Below, piece by piece: positions 1,820-18,834 of a DNA stretch of 40,443 bases (position 1 is the first letter of the stretch; every line of letters begins with the position of its first letter). Under the pieces are notes generated by a model. The model was given only the letters and a program-made list of their open reading frames with translations. It was not told the DNA's origin and did no database searches. This DNA is from Chitinophagaceae bacterium (GTDB lineage: Bacteria; Bacteroidota; Bacteroidia; Chitinophagales; Chitinophagaceae). A program made the translations under genes and the position numbers. The stretch spans positions 1-40,443 of the forward strand of contig CANGSR010000006.1 of NCBI GenBank assembly GCA_947456055.1, written 5' to 3'.

Positions 1820-1845
1820 TTAGTTTTTAGGGGATACCTCTTGGC

Positions 1846-1897
1846 TGGGCGTTAGTCTTCAGACTACGTCCTGGTGGTTGTCAGTCTCCCGACTGAC
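1846..1897 (+). repeat. REP-like 52-bp repeat, copy A
   Basis: TGGGCGTTAGTCTTCAGACTACGTCCTGGTGGTTGTCAGTCTCCCGACTGAC, identical to 3794..3845; contains hairpin GTCAGTC-TCCC-GACTGAC. Confidence 0.85.
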
Positions 1898-1919
1898 CAA
1901 CACGGACATCATTTGCTCC

Positions 1920-2208
1920 TTCGGATTTAAAATCCGAAAGTACATGGCAGGGGATTTTTAATCCCTGTGGCTTTATTTATGTTCATTTTGCACATATGGG
2001 GCTGCAAAACAGGCTTGATAAAGAATTTACTTATTATCTTACATGAAAACCCGGTAAGGGCTGAATTAGTTGCTGAACCTCATCATTATTTATATAGCTC
2101 TGCTATAGACTATTGCGGTGGGAAAGGGGTGATACCGGATGTTTTGGCTTGGTAGATATCGGGGATTAAAAATCCCTAACCATTGCGTTCGGATTTTAAA
2201 TCCGAACG
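1920..2208 (+). mobile_element. Internal-deletion (MITE-like) derivative of the adjacent RAYT-like element, bounded by inverted pairs of hairpins
   Basis: Left end TTCGGATTT-A-AAATCCGAA (1920..1938) plus GGGATT-TTT-AATCCC (1951..1965); right end GGGATT-AAA-AATCCC (2162..2176) plus CGTTCGGATTT-T-AAATCCGAACG (2186..2208). Interior matches the 5' and 3' ends of the transposase at 2315..2875. Confidence 0.75.
1981..2155 (+). pseudogene. Remnant of Y1/RAYT-like transposase (internal deletion plus frameshift)
   Basis: VHFAHMGLQNRLDKEFTYYLT reads in one frame, then jumps to HENPVRAELVAEPHHYLYSSAIDYCGGKGVIPDVLAW in another; 386 bp of copy 2 is absent. Confidence 0.8.
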
Positions 2209-2251
2209 AGCGAGCAAATTAGTTTCCATCAGAAGCTAGACTTACTCTGCT

Positions 2252-2300
2252 CTTTCGGATTTAAAATCCGAAAGCCCATGGCAGGGGATTTTTAATCCCC
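2252..2300 (+). repeat. Nested hairpins at left end of RAYT-like copy 2
   Basis: CTTTCGGATTT-A-AAATCCGAAAG (2252..2274) and GGGGATT-TTT-AATCCCC (2284..2300), same order as the left end of copy 1. Confidence 0.8.
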
Positions 2301-2314
2301 GGAGCAGTTATTTT

Positions 2315-2875
2315 GTGTATTTTGCACATATGGGGCTAAAAAACAGAATTGATAAAGACTTTGCTTATTATCTCACATTAACTGTTGTTGAATGGGTGGA
2401 CATTTTTACCCGGCCTATTTACAGACATATCATAACAGACTCGCTTTCCTACTGCATTCGGGAAAAAGGTCTGGAAATTAATGCATGGGTAATGATGAGC
2501 AACCATTTGCACCTGGTTGCATCTGCAAGGGGCAAAGACAGCCTTTCTGATATTTTTCGGGATATGAAAAAATTCACTAGCAAAAAAATTATCGAAACCA
2601 TTCAACTGGTGCCGGAAAGCCGCCGTGACTGGTTGCTATACCGGTTTGAATATGCAGGTAAATATGATCCTAAAATTAAAAACTATAAATTCTGGCAGGA
2701 TGGGAATGAGCCAAAAGAAATTCAGACATTTCCGTTTTTAAAACAAAAAGTTGATTATATACATGAAAACCCGGTAAGGGCTGAATTAGTGGCTGAACCT
2801 CATCATTATTTATATAGCTCTGCGATTGACTATTGCGGTGGGCAAGGGGTTTTACCAGTTGTTTTGGCTTGGTAG
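2315..2875 (+). CDS. REP-associated tyrosine transposase-like (Y1_Tnp / IS200-like superfamily) protein
   Basis: MMSNHLHLVASARGKDSLSDIFRDMKKFTSKKI (HUH motif HLH) and VDYIHENPVRAELVAEPHHYLYSSA (helix with candidate catalytic Tyr). Confidence 0.85.
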   Translation: MYFAHMGLKNRIDKDFAYYLTLTVVEWVDIFTRPIYRHIITDSLSYCIREKGLEINAWVMMSNHLHLVASARGKDSLSDIFRDMKKFTSKKIIETIQLVPESRRDWLLYRFEYAGKYDPKIKNYKFWQDGNEPKEIQTFPFLKQKVDYIHENPVRAELVAEPHHYLYSSAIDYCGGQGVLPVVLAW

Positions 2876-2930
2876 GCATTGGGGAGTCGGAGAACTAAAC
2901 AAGGTGTCCAAACAGGTTTTCAACTTTAGC

Positions 2931-3572
2931 TCAGTAGCATCTTGCGCAGCCATCTGTTGCCTTTGTTTTAATACATGCAGTGTTGTTCTCTACTTTTTCT
3001 TTATCACCCAGTTTGGCATCGGTTGTTGAGCTCTCGCCATAGTGTATATAGGTGATGGTTACATTGTCGCCTATACTATGGCTGGTAATGGTTTCCTTCA
3101 ATTCTTCGGTGCTATTGATTTTCGTGCTGTTTACTTTAGTAATTATATCACCTACTCTAAGTCCCGCTTTATCCGCCGGGCTACACGGAATAATCTGGTC
3201 AATTTTTGCACCACCATTGCAGTAGGTCGTATACACACCAAGCAACGCACTTCCGGTATTCGCCGTGTATTGTTTTGTCGGCATCGTGTAGGATGGGACT
3301 GGTTTCGTGTAATTTATTTTAACAGTATAATTGTCGGAATACGGGTGTTTAGCGGTTGCCACAACATTGTCATTTACGTATATCTTGCCTTTGGTGAACT
3401 GCACAACGGCGGGGCTTACAGCACTATTGACTTCAACGGTTTCGGAATGCGGCACAATGGGCTTGCGTGGCTTTACAGGAGGACATCCCTGAATTTCTTT
3501 TGTTTGGGCAATGCCCTCAAGGCTATTACACAATGAAAGCGCCATGAGTATTGTAAAAGTAAATTTGATCAT
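2931..3572 (-). CDS. Exported PDZ-domain protein
   Basis: N-terminal signal (MIKFTFTILMALSLCNSLEGIAQ); LLGVYTTYCNGGAKIDQIIPCSPADKAGLRVGDIITKVNSTKINSTEELKETI is a PDZ signature. Confidence 0.75.
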   Translation of the reverse strand: MIKFTFTILMALSLCNSLEGIAQTKEIQGCPPVKPRKPIVPHSETVEVNSAVSPAVVQFTKGKIYVNDNVVATAKHPYSDNYTVKINYTKPVPSYTMPTKQYTANTGSALLGVYTTYCNGGAKIDQIIPCSPADKAGLRVGDIITKVNSTKINSTEELKETITSHSIGDNVTITYIHYGESSTTDAKLGDKEKVENNTACIKTKATDGCARCY

Positions 3573-3793
3573 AAATAATTTATTTTTGAAGTGAGACTAA
3601 ACTGCTGAAAATCGAAAATGTGGTAATTTAGTTTTGCCACGGTAATCATCCGCCCACAAAGGTGAGATACCCTCACCCGGAAATTTTACACAATTGTAAA
3701 AATGAATTACATATTTCCTAAGTCTGTTCACGCCTTCTTTTAGCCAGTTTGTCTGGTATTAGTTTCTTTTGGGCTGCCGACTATAGGCTTAGT

Positions 3794-3845
3794 TGGGCGT
3801 TAGTCTTCAGACTACGTCCTGGTGGTTGTCAGTCTCCCGACTGAC
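3794..3845 (+). repeat. REP-like 52-bp repeat, copy B
   Basis: Identical to 1846..1897. Confidence 0.85.
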
Positions 3846-3867
3846 GAAAACAGACTTCTTATACTTC

Positions 3868-3917
3868 GCAATTCGGGAGAATTGCTGCCACTGCGACGTA
3901 GTCTGGAGACAAACGCC
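3868..3917 (-). repeat. REP-like repeat, diverged inverted copy C
   Basis: Reverse complement GGCGTTTGTCTCCAGACTACGTCGCAGTGGCAGCAATTCTCCCGAATTGC aligns to copies A/B; hairpin GCAATTC-TCCC-GAATTGC keeps the loop with compensatory stem changes. Confidence 0.75.
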
Positions 3918-4179
3918 GAACACTGGTCGGAGGAAATGAGGGTCGACCTTTTTCTGGCCCACATATTTTGAGGTTGCTTCAGCAGCAGAAAAAGCTACCT
4001 CGCAATGACGCACGGGGAGATTGCAGTATAGGGGTAAAGCCTAATAGCATTCCCACCCCTGAACGGTGCTAACGCCACTAGGCCCAATAGCATACCAATG
4101 CCGGGACAAAAAACCTTTTTATTTAGTGGTAATCATTGAAGTATAAGTGATTCTTAGCCCGATTATCTAAATTTGTTTC

Positions 4180-12706: not shown

Positions 12707-13093
12707 ATTTTTTTGAAAGAGTACAAAATCCTGATTTTTTGCGAGTACTGCCATTGTTGCCATTGATCAGTTTCGTGTTTGGCGAGTGATTAAAAAAAAG
12801 ACAAAGCCTGGTGGCCTCACTCCGGCCCTCTCCGAATGGAGAGGGTGTGGTATCCTGACATTTCTGACAGTATTTTTTGAGATATGCAGGTATTGGGCAT
12901 ATCCTATTCCAAGATTTTTTGTTCAACAAATTGGGTAATGTCAAGGTCAGGTCTGTGGTACAAGGATCGGGCTGATGTTGCATTTTAGGCTTTGGCACTT
13001 TGAATACCAGTCACAGACTGGGTTATTTAGTAGACACGAGTGATCCTCCGGAACACTTGCGCCAGTGAGATATTCCAGGGTACATATATAATG

Positions 13094-13123
13094 ATGGTTT
13101 ATGATTCATGAATCATAAACCAT
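13094..13123. repeat. Perfect 30-bp palindrome upstream of blaI-like gene
   Basis: ATGGTTTATGATTCATGAATCATAAACCAT equals its own reverse complement. Confidence 0.9.
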
Positions 13124-13187
13124 GAATATTATTATTAGCGAAAGTGATTTTAAATATTTCCTAGAATTATTTGGTTTATCAGTTTTG

Positions 13188-13205
13188 TAACGTATATTTA
13201 CGTTA
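13188..13205 (+). promoter_or_regulatory. Candidate BlaI-type operator overlapping the start codon
   Basis: TAACGTA-TATT-TACGTTA perfect 7-bp inverted repeat ending on the A of the ATG. Confidence 0.55.
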
Positions 13206-13588
13206 TGAAACGCAACATTTCGTTACAGACATTAACTAAGGCAGAGGAAGAGGTAATGCATATAATATGGCAACTGGATAAATGCCTGGTAAGGGATATT
13301 ATAGACCAGCTTGGCGACCCCGATATGCCCCATAGTACCATATCGTCGGTTGTGCGCATACTGGAAAAGAAGGGATTTGTGAACCATAAAGCCTACGGCA
13401 AAACGCATGAGTACTTCCCCATTGTGACCAGGGAACAATATGCGCAACACGGTGTTAGCAGCCTGATGGAAAAATATTTTGGTGGCTCACCTAAGAAACT
13501 GGTCAGCTTCCTGGTGAAAAGCGAGAATATGAATTTGAAAGAGTTGAATGAACTAATGAAAACTATTGAGGATACTAAAACTGACTGA
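13205..13588 (+). CDS. BlaI/MecI/CopY family transcriptional repressor
   Basis: LTKAEEEVMHIIWQLDKCLVRDIIDQLGDPDMPHSTISSVVRILEKKGFVNHKAYGKTHEYFPIVTREQYA. Confidence 0.93.
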   Translation: MKRNISLQTLTKAEEEVMHIIWQLDKCLVRDIIDQLGDPDMPHSTISSVVRILEKKGFVNHKAYGKTHEYFPIVTREQYAQHGVSSLMEKYFGGSPKKLVSFLVKSENMNLKELNELMKTIEDTKTD

Positions 13589-14834
13589 TATGCTCCAATA
13601 CATCATCAACCTAAGTGCCATCTGGCTTTTTAGCTTTGCGATTTATGAAGTTTTTCTAAAGAAAGAGAACTATCATGGGTACAATCGGTTATACCTGATT
13701 GCTACCTTCCTGATGGGTATTGTTTTCCCATTGGTTCATTTGCCTACCAAACAGGCTGAATTTATTGCCCCACTCCAGCAGCCAATTGCAAAAATATTAG
13801 CACCCACAATTACTACTTCGGTAGTAACCAACCATTCCTTTTCATGGTACTCTTTGCTTATTTATGCCTATCTGGGCGGGGTTGTATTAGCCGCACTATT
13901 GATGTTGGTCGATATAGTTAAACTAGTTCTATTGTACTATAAATCCAATAGCTACAGGTCAGGTATATGGAATGTAGTTACTACTGGTGGTAATCATGCA
14001 CCCTTCTCATTCTTAAATACCTTATTCGCAGGCAATCCTGATAACTATACTCCAGAAGAATGGAGGATAATCCTGGCACATGAAGCTCGCCACTATCAAC
14101 TTGGTCATTTAGCTGATGTATTACTTATGCAAATAAGCAGGATTGTTTTTTGGTTTCATCCGTTGGTTTATGTCTTTCAAAACCGCCTGTTACTAGTACA
14201 CGAATTCCAAGCTGATAGTGTGGCGAATGAAAACCCGGTGGAGTACGGGCATTTTTTGATTGACCAGTCATTGCTAGCAGGAGGCCCATCTTTTGCACAT
14301 TCTTTTAATAGTTCACCCATAAAAAACAGAATTACTATGCTCTCAAAAACCAAAATCAAGGCCAGCAAATCAGCGAAAATGAAATTATTAATGGCAGTAC
14401 CGTTAATAGTATTCTGCCTGGTGTTTTGTACCCAAATTGCCTACTCGGGTAATAAGGACAAAAAAGACAATAAGACCACAACCAAAAGTGCAGTAAGGAA
14501 ATACAAGTACCATGCGAGGCTAGGCGATATAGACAGTATTAAAACTACATTTTCAAAAATATTGGCCAACCCAAGGTTAGTAAGTATCGAACCAGGTGGT
14601 GTAGTAAAAAGTTTTACCGTTATGTTTCTTCCAAAAGGGAAAGACCTGTTCGGACCATACTATCAAAGGGACAACAGAGATGGAAAACTCAATCAGAATG
14701 AAACAGAATTGATTAAAGGATTTATCGAGGCAAAGGAAATGAAGCTTAGACTGATTATTGAAGACATAATAGTGGAGCACAATAATGTAACTGATACAGC
14801 AGCACCTATAGTATTGTTTGTGGATACCGAATAA
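13566..14834 (+). CDS. M56 (BlaR1-like) membrane metallopeptidase with C-terminal extracytoplasmic domain type A
   Basis: Multi-TM N-terminus, ILAHEARHYQLGHLADVLLMQISRIVFWFHPLVYVFQNRLLLVHEFQAD (HExxH intact), then FKYHARLGD-like domain; overlaps the 3' end of the repressor gene. ATG at 13590 (MLQYIINLSAIWLF) is the likely start. Confidence 0.9.
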   Translation: MRILKLTDMLQYIINLSAIWLFSFAIYEVFLKKENYHGYNRLYLIATFLMGIVFPLVHLPTKQAEFIAPLQQPIAKILAPTITTSVVTNHSFSWYSLLIYAYLGGVVLAALLMLVDIVKLVLLYYKSNSYRSGIWNVVTTGGNHAPFSFLNTLFAGNPDNYTPEEWRIILAHEARHYQLGHLADVLLMQISRIVFWFHPLVYVFQNRLLLVHEFQADSVANENPVEYGHFLIDQSLLAGGPSFAHSFNSSPIKNRITMLSKTKIKASKSAKMKLLMAVPLIVFCLVFCTQIAYSGNKDKKDNKTTTKSAVRKYKYHARLGDIDSIKTTFSKILANPRLVSIEPGGVVKSFTVMFLPKGKDLFGPYYQRDNRDGKLNQNETELIKGFIEAKEMKLRLIIEDIIVEHNNVTDTAAPIVLFVDTE

Positions 14835-14892
14835 AAAACTACCTGATTGAAGGCTCAACACTGAATTTTAACCCATAAAAAACAGAATTGCA

Positions 14893-15585
14893 ATGCACTC
14901 AAAAACGACAACCAGTGGTGTAAAGATAGACAATAGGAAACTATTGATGCTGGCATCCCTTATGCTGTATTTTATGGTGATTAGCATACAGAATAACTAT
15001 GCAGGAACGCGGGTAAGGAAGGGGAATACTGTTATATTTAATGGGAATGCAATAAGGCTAAGTGCGAATGATGAGGCTGTTAATAGCAACCTTACTGCAG
15101 CCGAAAGCAGAGATGCTAAACCCATGCTACGCAGGAGTGCATATCCGCTAACACTCAATGACCAGCCCGTGTATGATGAAGATATTGTAAAAACAAAACC
15201 AAGCTTTATAAGCGGAGGTGATAGCCTGGATGCCTACGTGGTGGCTGGACTGAAGAAAGAACTTTCTAAACACCCGGAAAACGACTATTATTTATTTGTA
15301 TACAACATTATAGTAGACAAAACTGGCAAAATTGTCTATTATGACATACATGGACTGATGTATTGGGTAGATGACCCAAATAATAAAATGATCAAAAACC
15401 AGGCTTTTCTTAATGACCCCAAAATGATGAAAGCAATAGAAAACGTGATGGATAATATGCCACTGTTTAATCCGGCTACTATAGAGGGAAAACCAGTGGC
15501 TAGTTTTAGTGGCAGTACCCTTGTATTGGCATCGGGTAAAAAAATTAGCAACCGTAAAGGGAAGGTAAGTATTGTGAAATATTAA
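14893..15585 (+). CDS. Stand-alone exported protein with domain type B; probable truncated M56 paralogue
   Basis: TM/signal then VRKGNTVIFNGNAIRLS...YYLFVYNIIVDKTGKIVYYDIHG, similar to the C-terminus of 15606..17123; in-frame leader encodes PIKNRIA. Confidence 0.75.
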   Translation: MHSKTTTSGVKIDNRKLLMLASLMLYFMVISIQNNYAGTRVRKGNTVIFNGNAIRLSANDEAVNSNLTAAESRDAKPMLRRSAYPLTLNDQPVYDEDIVKTKPSFISGGDSLDAYVVAGLKKELSKHPENDYYLFVYNIIVDKTGKIVYYDIHGLMYWVDDPNNKMIKNQAFLNDPKMMKAIENVMDNMPLFNPATIEGKPVASFSGSTLVLASGKKISNRKGKVSIVKY

Positions 15586-15605
15586 TAAGGATAAAAAACA
15601 GGGTT

Positions 15606-17123
15606 ATGCTGCAATACCTCATTAATCTTAGTGCAATATGGCTTTTGAGCCTATTAGTCTATGAAGTTTTCCTAAAGAAGGAGACCTATCATAGATATAA
15701 TAGGTTTTATCTGCTCATCACATTTGCGGCTGGATTGGTATTGCCATTAATCCATTTGAATACCACTGAACAGATTTATACAGCAACTCATACAGCCCCC
15801 ATATACCATTTCATTGAAACAAAAGCATCCATCCAAACGCCCGATACACTTATTGTTACAAAATCAGCAAACAATATCAATTACCTATTACTAAGCTACC
15901 TGGCTGGCTGTGTTATAGTATTTATATTCTTCCTAAAGGATGCTTATCTTCTATGGCGTCTATTTAGGAAAGGCATACAACACAGTGTAGATGGATGGTG
16001 GATAATAGAAACAGGAAAAGCCCATGGACCGTTTTCCATGCTAAACACCCTCTATGTGAGCAACATTAAGGACTACAGTGAAACAGAGTGGGCTATGCTT
16101 TCAGAGCATGAATACCTGCACTACAAACACCTGCATTTTATAGACCTGGTAATGTTGCAAGTAGCCAAAATCATCTTCTGGTTCCATCCACTAGTCTATA
16201 TCTATAATTATCGGCTCGCAATAATTCATGAATTCCAGGCCGACTCTACTTCAAGAAATAACCTGAAAACGTATTGTCAATTCCTATTGGAACAATCGAT
16301 TTTGAGCAATGTCCCAACCCTGGCACATTGCCTTACCCGCTCCCCTTTGAGTACCAGATTCCACATGTTGGCCTCAAAATCTTCAAAACTGGCAAAAATG
16401 AAATCATTAATCTTAGCACCTATTTTATTAATATGCCTTCTTTGTTTTACCAAAACAATATTGGCAAGGGATAAAGTAATTAAAGGACATAAGGTATACT
16501 TCTGGGGGAATGAAATTGAAATAGCAGATTCGACCTGGCATACTATTTTCATCAATGATTCGGGTAAGGAGAGTGGCAATTACATAACAACGCCACAAAA
16601 ATGCCAATTCCCATATCCAGCCAAACTAAATGGGGACGATATAATTAATTACGAATATTACCGTGATAGTGAGAAATTGGCTAATACAGGGGAAACCAGC
16701 GAAAAATACTACCACCTTTCTGATGTATTTCTTATACAACAAGATATAATTAACCGTTCCCTAATTAAATACCTTTATGATAATTTGGAAAGTGATTTTG
16801 CTACCCTACCTGATGGCCGGTACAGGCTGTATGTTAGAAATATGGTTATCAACAAAATAGGCGAAATAGTGTACTTCGATGGTGCAGCTATTAATGATTC
16901 TAAATCTGACTATCACGGAATATATAATTATGCATTAATGAATAGTCCTGAGGCATTAGCTATTGTAAAAAAAGTAAGCTCCTTATTGAAGGATGCACCA
17001 GATTTTGGCCACTTTACTAATGTTGATGCTAAGCCGGCAATAGGGTTAATAAATACAATTATTACTGATGCCTCATTTACCATAAAAGATCATAAACTGA
17101 CAGTTAGATTTCCTAAGAAATAG
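15606..17123 (+). CDS. Second M56 (BlaR1-like) metallopeptidase with C-terminal domain type B
   Basis: MLQYLINLSAIWLLSLLVYEVFLKKETYHRYNR..., MLSEHEYLHYKHLHFIDLVMLQVAKIIFWFHPLVYIYNYRLAIIHEFQAD (HExxH intact). Confidence 0.9.
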   Translation: MLQYLINLSAIWLLSLLVYEVFLKKETYHRYNRFYLLITFAAGLVLPLIHLNTTEQIYTATHTAPIYHFIETKASIQTPDTLIVTKSANNINYLLLSYLAGCVIVFIFFLKDAYLLWRLFRKGIQHSVDGWWIIETGKAHGPFSMLNTLYVSNIKDYSETEWAMLSEHEYLHYKHLHFIDLVMLQVAKIIFWFHPLVYIYNYRLAIIHEFQADSTSRNNLKTYCQFLLEQSILSNVPTLAHCLTRSPLSTRFHMLASKSSKLAKMKSLILAPILLICLLCFTKTILARDKVIKGHKVYFWGNEIEIADSTWHTIFINDSGKESGNYITTPQKCQFPYPAKLNGDDIINYEYYRDSEKLANTGETSEKYYHLSDVFLIQQDIINRSLIKYLYDNLESDFATLPDGRYRLYVRNMVINKIGEIVYFDGAAINDSKSDYHGIYNYALMNSPEALAIVKKVSSLLKDAPDFGHFTNVDAKPAIGLINTIITDASFTIKDHKLTVRFPKK

Positions 17124-17163
17124 TATTATCTTTAATCTATCAACCACCTAAAAAAGAACCATA

Positions 17164-17601
17164 ATGAAAAAGAAAAGTTTAATAACAGCAATCGCACTAC
17201 TTATCATCTCCATTTCATTTATATGGAAGAACAGTGTTGCACAGAATGTGCCTGGTGCTGTAAGGCAATTCAAATACCATGCTCGGCTTGGTGATGTAGG
17301 AGGTAACAAAACTACTTTCTCCAAAATACTAGCAAACCCAAAGATTACCAGTATAGAACCTGGCGGTGTAGTAAAAAGTTTCACAGTAATGTTTCTTCCG
17401 AAAGGGAAAGACCTGCTAGGGCCTTACTCACAGAGGGATAACAATGAAGGAAAACTAAGCCAACGTGAAACTGAACTGATAAAAGGATTTATCGAGGCAA
17501 AGGAAATGAAGCTGAGGATGATTATTGAACACATAATAGTGGAGTACAATAATGTAACCGATACTGCCGCACCGATCGTATTGTTTGTGGATAATGAATA
17601 A
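17164..17601 (+). CDS. Stand-alone exported protein with domain type A (paralogue of the C-terminus of the first M56 protein)
   Basis: KYHARLGDVGGNKTTFSKILANPKITSIEPGGVVKSFTVMFLPKGKDLLGPYSQRDN...IVLFVDNE closely matches residues at the end of 13566..14834. Confidence 0.8.
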   Translation: MKKKSLITAIALLIISISFIWKNSVAQNVPGAVRQFKYHARLGDVGGNKTTFSKILANPKITSIEPGGVVKSFTVMFLPKGKDLLGPYSQRDNNEGKLSQRETELIKGFIEAKEMKLRMIIEHIIVEYNNVTDTAAPIVLFVDNE

Positions 17602-17636
17602 GAAGGCTATTTATGGTTCTAAATACATGCAACAAA

Positions 17637-18077
17637 ATGAGGTTAGTAGTGCGAATTCTGGTAAGCTTGCTTACCCTGATTTTTGTTGCACCAACTAATG
17701 CATGTTGCAAAATAGCTGTGACTTATGAAATAGCAGATAGCTCAAATAGTAAGCCACACTACAGAGGCATCCAATTCCATTTTGCTAATGACATGGGAGA
17801 TACCCTATCGGTTCAAGAGATATTGGGCAATCCTACTCTTGTTATGTATAGGGAGGATTATGCAGTGGGGGACTTTTATTTATACCTGATTACGAAAAAA
17901 GAGCAATACGGCCCCTATATTCACTATGGCAACAAACTCAATAAAAATGCCCAGATTATGATTAAACTGTTGAAGCATCAGGAGTTCAATTTGATCTTTG
18001 ACAGGGTTCATAATTATGATGAGGAAGGACTATTGAGGCGCTCACCAAAACGGGTGGTTCATTGCAAGCCAAAATAA
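17637..18077 (+). CDS. Stand-alone exported protein, diverged domain type A
   Basis: ORF open from 17613; MRLVVRILVSLLTLIFVAPTNACC signal; FYLYLITKKEQYGPYIHYGNKLNKNAQIMIKLLKHQEFNLIFDRV aligns with the domain A core. Confidence 0.65.
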   Translation: MRLVVRILVSLLTLIFVAPTNACCKIAVTYEIADSSNSKPHYRGIQFHFANDMGDTLSVQEILGNPTLVMYREDYAVGDFYLYLITKKEQYGPYIHYGNKLNKNAQIMIKLLKHQEFNLIFDRVHNYDEEGLLRRSPKRVVHCKPK

Positions 18078-18093
18078 TATTCCTCTAACATAA

Positions 18094-18138
18094 AGACCTA
18101 ATGGTGTAGTATATTTATCATGCAATAATCAGTTCTTA
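18094..18138 (+). repeat. 45-bp imperfect direct repeat, copy 1
   Basis: AGACCTAATGGTGTAGTATATTTATCATGCAATAATCAGTTCTTA; ungapped 35/45 match to 18880..18924. Confidence 0.65.
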
Positions 18139-18177
18139 ATGATTCATTCAATTGTTTGCCGGTAAAACAGAATATCT

Positions 18178-18834
18178 ATGCTAACACACCATACTCTCAC
18201 ATTTAGCCGGTTAAGGGTATTGCTTTTAGCATTGATTTCGGTTGTTGCATTTTCAATTACAGGGTTTTCGCAAAAAAAAATCGTTCAGAATGGGAGGATT
18301 CTATCCTTTAATGGTAATACTATGGAAATAAGTCCGGGCTATTGCGATTCTACTATGATTGTAAATCCTGTCACAGGAATGGAAAGCATATTGATTACCT
18401 TGTCAGCTCCCCATCCAATTAAATTAAATGGCAACAAAATTTATTATTCAGACGAACTAAATTCAAAAGTTTTATTCCAATCAAATGACAGTTTATTAGG
18501 ACAATTCCTGATAGAACAAATAACCACCTTCCTTATTAAGCTCAACGATGGTCATTACGACCTTAATTTAAACAATATCGTTATAGATGAAAAAGGCAAA
18601 CTAGTTTACTATGAATTTAATGGAATAATTGAAAATCGCAATCTAAATTCTCACCAAGATACAATACAACTAGAATTGAAAAATGAGATTGACAATAAGA
18701 TAAAATATATACTTAATAATACAGTCGTTACTCCTGCAAAATACCAAAATACAAATGTCCCTTCTCTTTTTTATTATGACGGTCTTTACCTAACAATCGT
18801 TATCAAAAACCACAAAATAGTACACTGGTGGTGA
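18178..18834 (+). CDS. Stand-alone exported protein with domain type B
   Basis: Signal peptide (LLLALISVVAFSITGFSQ), then KKIVQNGRILSFNGNTMEISPG...HYDLNLNNIVIDEKGKLVYYEFNGII resembling 14893..15585 and the end of 15606..17123. Confidence 0.75.
   Translation: MLTHHTLTFSRLRVLLLALISVVAFSITGFSQKKIVQNGRILSFNGNTMEISPGYCDSTMIVNPVTGMESILITLSAPHPIKLNGNKIYYSDELNSKVLFQSNDSLLGQFLIEQITTFLIKLNDGHYDLNLNNIVIDEKGKLVYYEFNGIIENRNLNSHQDTIQLELKNEIDNKIKYILNNTVVTPAKYQNTNVPSLFYYDGLYLTIVIKNHKIVHWW

Follow-up and report, generated by a model that had tools for sequence, protein, structure and literature searches.

A BlaI-linked island joins BlaR1-like M56 receptors to GldM-D4-like and TonB-like domains and their stand-alone copies

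Introduction

Signalling of the BlaR1 type is known mainly from beta-lactam resistance. The BlaR1 receptor is built from membrane helices, a zinc domain, a last helix and then an extracytoplasmic C-terminal domain. Here we describe an island of seven genes within positions 13,094-18,834 of a 40,443-nucleotide stretch of DNA (contig CANGSR010000006.1 of assembly GCA_947456055.1; the whole stretch is referred to below as the window) from an uncultured Chitinophagaceae bacterium near Flavipsychrobacter/Taibaiella, in which a BlaI-type repressor is followed by two M56 peptidases of BlaR1-like layout. The BlaR1 chassis here carries modules resembling those of a secretion/motility motor and of TonB, along with free copies of both.

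The first of these modules leads to GldM, the motor shaft of the type IX secretion system (T9SS) and gliding machinery. Its C-terminal domain, D4, is a docking module: D4 of PorM alone is enough to bind PorN, the GldN homologue (PMC5790014; PMC7463736).

Results

A preliminary description of this locus, made from the letters alone, had listed one BlaI-type repressor, two M56 proteins with an HExxH motif and four other exported, co-directional open reading frames (ORFs), and all seven ORFs indeed lie on the + strand, separated by gaps of 1, 58, 20, 40, 11 and 100 bases. The repressor (13205-13588, 127 amino acids) belongs to the BlaI/MecI family, with 106 bits against a cut-off of 22.6 for Pfam Penicillinase_R (1.9e-30). 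The two receptors, M56-1 (13590-14834) and M56-2 (15606-17123), reach 43.8 and 47.4 bits with Peptidase_M56 (cut-off 31) and carry HEARH at residue 172 of the 422-residue M56-1 ORF (13566-14834) and HEYLH at residue 168 of M56-2. M56-1 probably begins at the ATG at 13590, one base past the BlaI stop codon, because this ATG aligns with M56-2. In both receptors, hydropathy indicates N-terminal helices, the zinc domain, a last helix and then a C-terminal domain, the orientation being predicted.

The C-terminal domains of the two receptors differ from each other and recur elsewhere in the island. Domain A is fused to M56-1 (~14478-14831) and stands alone as A1 (17164-17601) and, diverged, as A2 (17613-18077, with an inner ATG at 17637, the coordinate given in the preliminary description); domain B is fused to M56-2 (~16458-17120) and stands alone as B1 (14893-15585, membrane-anchored or exported) and B2 (18178-18834). 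In BLASTP among the seven island proteins these repeats are far above chance and bear out the domain assignments made earlier: A1 matches the M56-1 tail with 66% amino acid identity (E = 4e-66) and A2 matches M56-1 at 1e-6, while B1 and B2 match M56-2 at 2e-13 and 2e-10 and each other at 8e-13. A1 is a near copy of the M56-1 tail, with 81% amino acid identity over 118 codons, 81% DNA identity over 350 bp and a ratio of nonsynonymous to synonymous substitution rates (dN/dS) of 0.11. A2 also matches the domain A profile (~1e-24), a profile into which A2 itself had been absorbed. The stand-alone copies are thus real, as claimed, but not bare domains: each additionally has a hydrophobic segment aligned with the last M56 membrane helix, so that a stand-alone protein corresponds to a receptor minus its peptidase part.

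Profile and structure searches of both domains, which the preliminary description had called for, gave identities that it had not foreseen. A single-protein search with domain A found relatives in 34 of 35 genus genomes (own included) and, in addition, the C-terminus of GldM-sized ORFs; in the genome of the island itself this GldM-sized match sits in the gldL-gldM-gldN locus. The confinement of domain A to one genus that this search had suggested was overturned by a profile search across 299 family genomes, in which C-termini of GldM-sized ORFs were matched in dozens of genera. A domain A profile made without GldM reaches GldM at 3e-8 (in a small database), and hhalign aligned the whole domain with GldM_4th over 97 columns (probability 97.4, score 63.7), with 39 column-shuffled controls and one reversed control all scoring 17.7 or less. 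The Pfam GldM_4th model itself was weakly matched by 9 of 38 stand-alone domain A members (best 0.0016); it gave no match for A1, A2 or M56-1, and its gathering score was not reached. The AlphaFold model of the stand-alone domain A protein A1 (predicted local distance difference test score 91.3) has the element order b-b-a-b-b-b-a-b-b-b, the same ten-element order of strands and helices as described for GldM D4 (Leone et al., PMC5790014). The profile alignment identifies domain A as a homologue of GldM D4. A second gldL-gldM pair, with no gldN beside it, is found elsewhere in the same genome (contig C154, locus L208, 4157-6601).

Domain B resembles the C-terminal domain (CTD) of TonB. Profile comparison of its C-terminal half with the TonB_C of this genome gave a probability of 94 and a score of 45.9 (shuffles ≤14.7), and TonB-CTD structures top the list of a fold search, yet with E values of 0.1 or worse and none significant alone; Pfam TonB_C had no match among 24 domain B members. 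On these comparisons domain B is probably a diverged TonB-C-terminal-like domain. A GldN origin of its N-terminal part was considered and set aside as a lead, the match being just a short DTxxxxDPVTGE-like motif (probability 53, score 34, 32 columns; shuffles ≤16.8). Searches of single window proteins with Pfam and NCBIfam gave at most chance-level matches for domains A and B, and a PDB sequence search with both profiles returned chance-level or short matches (erbB-2, E = 1.8; penicillin G acylase, 0.003 over 48 residues).

None of the island proteins has a Pfam match to a penicillin-binding sensor domain. The blaR1_generic model, whose cut-off is 400 bits, scores 34.9 and 18.7 and matches the peptidase part alone, and Pfam and ORF checks of the operon found no gene for a beta-lactamase or penicillin-binding protein (PBP), in agreement with the preliminary description. 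A BlaR1-like sensor of beta-lactams or cell-wall damage would account for the BlaI and M56 homology, and the genome holds two further BlaI-linked M56 proteins (contigs C8 and C141; L003, 997-2460, and L002, 592-2292) with a C-terminal N-acetylmuramoyl-L-alanine amidase domain (Amidase_3, 1.3e-38 and 2.4e-29). Given an island with neither sensor domain nor resistance genes, we rejected beta-lactam sensing, and this kind of explanation appears scarcely credible to us. By analogy with BlaR1, we propose that the island receptors would cleave BlaI upon some other signal.

An M56-alignment scan of the genome contigs yielded 77 loci, of which 50 were assigned to the same clade and 27 are more distant, some locus counts being affected by contig ends. 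Among the in-clade loci, BlaI is present in 47, a receptor fused to domain B in 46 and one fused to domain A in 5; stand-alone A occurs in 15, stand-alone B in 27 and either of them in 32. Seven of the 27 distant loci have a free classical TonB_C domain next to BlaI and to an M56 receptor, which in most cases has a TonB_C of its own. Other BlaI-linked M56 proteins (L149-L171, Winogradskyella and others) are 670-1184 amino acids in size and have long C-terminal parts of other kinds, that of L149 giving a weak ExbD match (1.7e-4). Three genus genomes (L043, L051 and L053) show tandem stand-alone A genes adjoining an ORF of ~960-990 amino acids, with no BlaI or M56; by eye, this ORF is seemingly uvrA in L043 and L051.

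The clade also shares an operator. The region upstream of blaI (13150-13204, + strand) is A+T-rich, with TTTG near -35 to -32, and ends in a perfect dyad, AACGTA-TATT-TACGTT, at 13189-13204, directly 5' of the blaI ATG. This motif, AACGTANNNNTACGTT, is perfect in 41 of 48 clade loci and has one mismatch in six others (47 of 48 with at most one mismatch), a level reached by one in 3650 shuffles, and in 46 of the 48 it lies exactly at the blaI ATG (at most two mismatches); outside the clade it is absent or poorly matched upstream of nearly all blaI genes. Its position suggests that the blaI transcript is leaderless and that BlaI would cover the promoter. BlaI itself is 98% identical to its counterpart in the nearest relative, with a dN/dS of 0.01. 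The perfect site occurs once in the genome (4.97 Mb, ~83% complete), and sites with one mismatch are fewer than for a reversed-pattern control (6 vs 16 per strand). We rejected an extended BlaI regulon, as there is no second perfect operator and the three one-mismatch sites inspected (contigs C65, C3 and C131) lie inside ORFs. With a single perfect operator in the genome, the simplest regulon is the operon itself, which is likely what BlaI controls; the output of the system is thus probably the operon itself, which supports the earlier suggestion that it may be the exported domains.

A further T9SS component appears in sister islands. Two loci, L133 of a Flavipsychrobacter sp. (in-clade) and L153, where the M56 gene is split over two frames, encode an M56 peptidase part with a GldN domain after it (Pfam 7e-36 and 1.7e-34), and each of these M56-GldN receptors has a stand-alone domain A gene immediately upstream. 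GldN-like proteins also occur unfused in L104 and L124 (4e-31), next to BlaI, M56 and domain B. The nine own-genus genomes sampled hold 3-8 GldN copies each; a few other genera also have high numbers, whereas most of the family has a single copy per genome. The genome of the island has gldLMN, and one of the proteins encoded in the window bears a T9SS sorting tail. From homology, we infer a link between the island and the T9SS.

Domains have moved repeatedly between the fused and the stand-alone state. On well-supported branches the trees require at least three such switches for A and at least seven for B, six being the safer number for B as one row of that tree is a contig-truncated M56. B2 is sister to an M56 tail of the nearest relative (Shimodaira-Hasegawa-like approximate likelihood ratio test, SH-aLRT, 95), and the M56-1 tail is nearer to A1 (81% amino acid identity) than to its counterpart in that relative (G023, 69%), consistent with late copying, or gene conversion, of the domain between its receptor-borne and free forms. 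The exported domains have gene-wide average dN/dS values of 0.09-0.32, and BlaI one of 0.01; such low values point to purifying selection on all compared copies, with no sign of diversifying selection, and hence to maintained function.

These data bear on two further explanations. The stand-alone genes could be mostly by-products of the birth and death of M56 genes, exported domains left behind after loss of the peptidase part and without a role shared with the sensor. In G012 the neighbours of A and B include stop-containing remnants of M56, as if a receptor were decaying into free domains, and M56 genes are split or stop-interrupted in G019 (contig C214), G028 (contig C140) and, as noted, L153 (G031), through decay or assembly error; the sister relationship of B2 to an M56 tail would fit as well. 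The compared stand-alone copies are nevertheless intact and under purifying selection, are present in nearly two thirds of in-clade loci and persist alone in many genomes, so that we regard this account as unlikely. The domains could also be immune-like decoys, mimicking secretion or motility parts attacked by phage, toxins or predators, with damage triggering the operon. The use of envelope-machine mimics as sensor domains with free copies, and the rapid turnover of island content, agree with this idea, but selection is purifying rather than diversifying on gene-wide averages, and we consider it very improbable. Positive selection or an arms race gained no support at dN/dS values of 0.01-0.32 throughout, and neither did an arms-race version of the earlier decoy proposal.

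Beyond the island, a gene for an Fe/Mn superoxide dismutase begins 159 bases past B2. A near-perfect palindrome of ~30-42 bases with a low-G+C stem lies at 13088-13129, ~80 bases upstream of blaI and across the start coordinate of the described region (13,094), and may be a terminator, an operator or the end of an element. An IS200-like Y1 transposase ORF (2315-2875, Pfam 1.4e-6) is surrounded by DNA repeats, both direct and inverted (as much as 91% over 126 bp), at 1840-3921, and the whole may be a REP-associated transposase element. An Rfam scan of the window matched a tRNA alone.

Discussion

Our tentative reading of the island is a proteolytic sensor under its own control: its periplasmic modules would dock on envelope machinery, probably T9SS-related, and the stand-alone modules would be its main output. 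BlaI would repress the operon through the dyad, and the periplasmic domains would act as docking modules for envelope partners, as GldM D4 binds GldN and TonB binds outer-membrane receptors. The most likely partner would be the T9SS/gliding machinery or lineage-expanded GldN/GldM-like paralogues, because the modules used are two known contact partners of that machine. A change in docking would then activate the M56 protease, BlaI would be cleaved and the operon induced, and the induced stand-alone modules would occupy the same partner, acting there and feeding back on the sensor. If the ectodomains bind T9SS parts, the island would represent a proteolytic sensor tied to that machine.

Nearly as likely is that the folds were borrowed for another ligand and have no T9SS link. 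The receptors would then be autoregulated envelope-stress sensors for a ligand that has nothing to do with secretion, and induction would supply the stand-alone domains as ligand buffers or co-receptors. The repeated fused/stand-alone swaps speak for borrowing, as do the M56-1 tail staying nearer to A1 than to the counterpart in the nearest relative and the same plan built with plain TonB_C in other loci. It fits less well with the side-by-side use, in two islands, of D4 and GldN, two modules that touch each other in the T9SS.

Several observations weigh against the docking scheme. A shared fold is no proof of a shared partner, and Foldseek with the domain A model returned weak Ig/FN3-like matches and not GldM. 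Both additional GldN-like genes that this genome holds (contigs C319 and C4) lie outside the island, with neither BlaI nor M56 next to them. By hand count, ~15 domain A loci of the genus have BlaI or M56 nearby and ~22 do not, five of the latter consisting of A plus B only; in the five genomes with such clusters (G006, G009, G012, G021 and G034), no intact M56 of this clade is present. No BlaI operator precedes the A+B clusters without M56, nor was AACGTANNNNTACGTT found before 13 domain A loci without BlaI. The recurrence of M56 genes with A/B satellites next to BlaI, raised in the preliminary description, therefore holds for the 32 in-clade loci given above and not for domain A as a whole, over half of whose loci are without M56. 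Its view of the stand-alone domains as partners or targets of the sensors is likewise upheld in part: they form a real, recurring unit with BlaR1-like receptors and are not merely sensor accessories, since A often occurs without M56 and intact A/B clusters persist without the M56 clade or an operator. Overall, what had been observed in the sequence was fully confirmed, and its interpretation was partly supported.

The docking scheme has a bolder form, which we hold to be distinctly doubtful. Receptors equipped with the docking modules of the T9SS/gliding machine (GldM D4, GldN) would keep that machine under proteolytic surveillance, monitoring the occupancy of the partner site and inducing free modules that take over or block it. 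If true, this would be a new layer of T9SS control besides PorXY/SigP. The island also offers a test system, with operator, repressor, receptor and ligand-like domains in one place, for what the non-beta-lactam M56 receptors of Bacteroidota sense. A literature search of limited coverage, which is no proof of novelty, found no paper linking M56 or BlaI with GldM or GldN.

Compared with BlaI-BlaR1 and MecI-MecR1, the island has the same repressor, the same type of M56 zinc-protease receptor, in which membrane helices are combined with a C-terminal domain outside the cytoplasm, the same adjacency of genes and a dyad operator at the promoter. It differs in its ectodomains, which are GldM-D4-like or TonB-CTD-like and not penicillin-binding, in having two receptors per repressor and stand-alone ectodomain copies, and in lacking a beta-lactamase or PBP gene. 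Domain A aligns with GldM/PorM D4 over its whole length and in the same order of strands and helices, whereas the proteins that carry it have diverged in sequence, are without D1-D3 or the GldL-binding helix bundle, and hold the domain attached to M56 or alone. The GldN domain of the sister islands resembles GldN/PorN closely enough to pass the Pfam cut-off, after an M56 part or alone; it is, however, a shorter module (profile positions 3-180 of 228), and none was found in the island of the window. Loci with BlaI, an M56-TonB_C receptor and stand-alone TonB_C, such as that of Flexithrix dorotheae (L147), share the plan of a repressor, a receptor with a C-terminal domain and stand-alone domain copies downstream, but their TonB_C is canonical, no GldM-D4-like or GldN modules were seen in them, and the operator of this clade is missing or poor before nearly all blaI genes of such outside loci.

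The island is a member of the BlaI and M56 families and is neither a BlaR1 beta-lactam sensor nor GldM nor TonB, of each of which latter two it has just one diverged domain. What is new here, on profile comparison, is domain A as a homologue of GldM D4, domain B as a probable diverged TonB-CTD-like domain, and the GldN module in sister islands.

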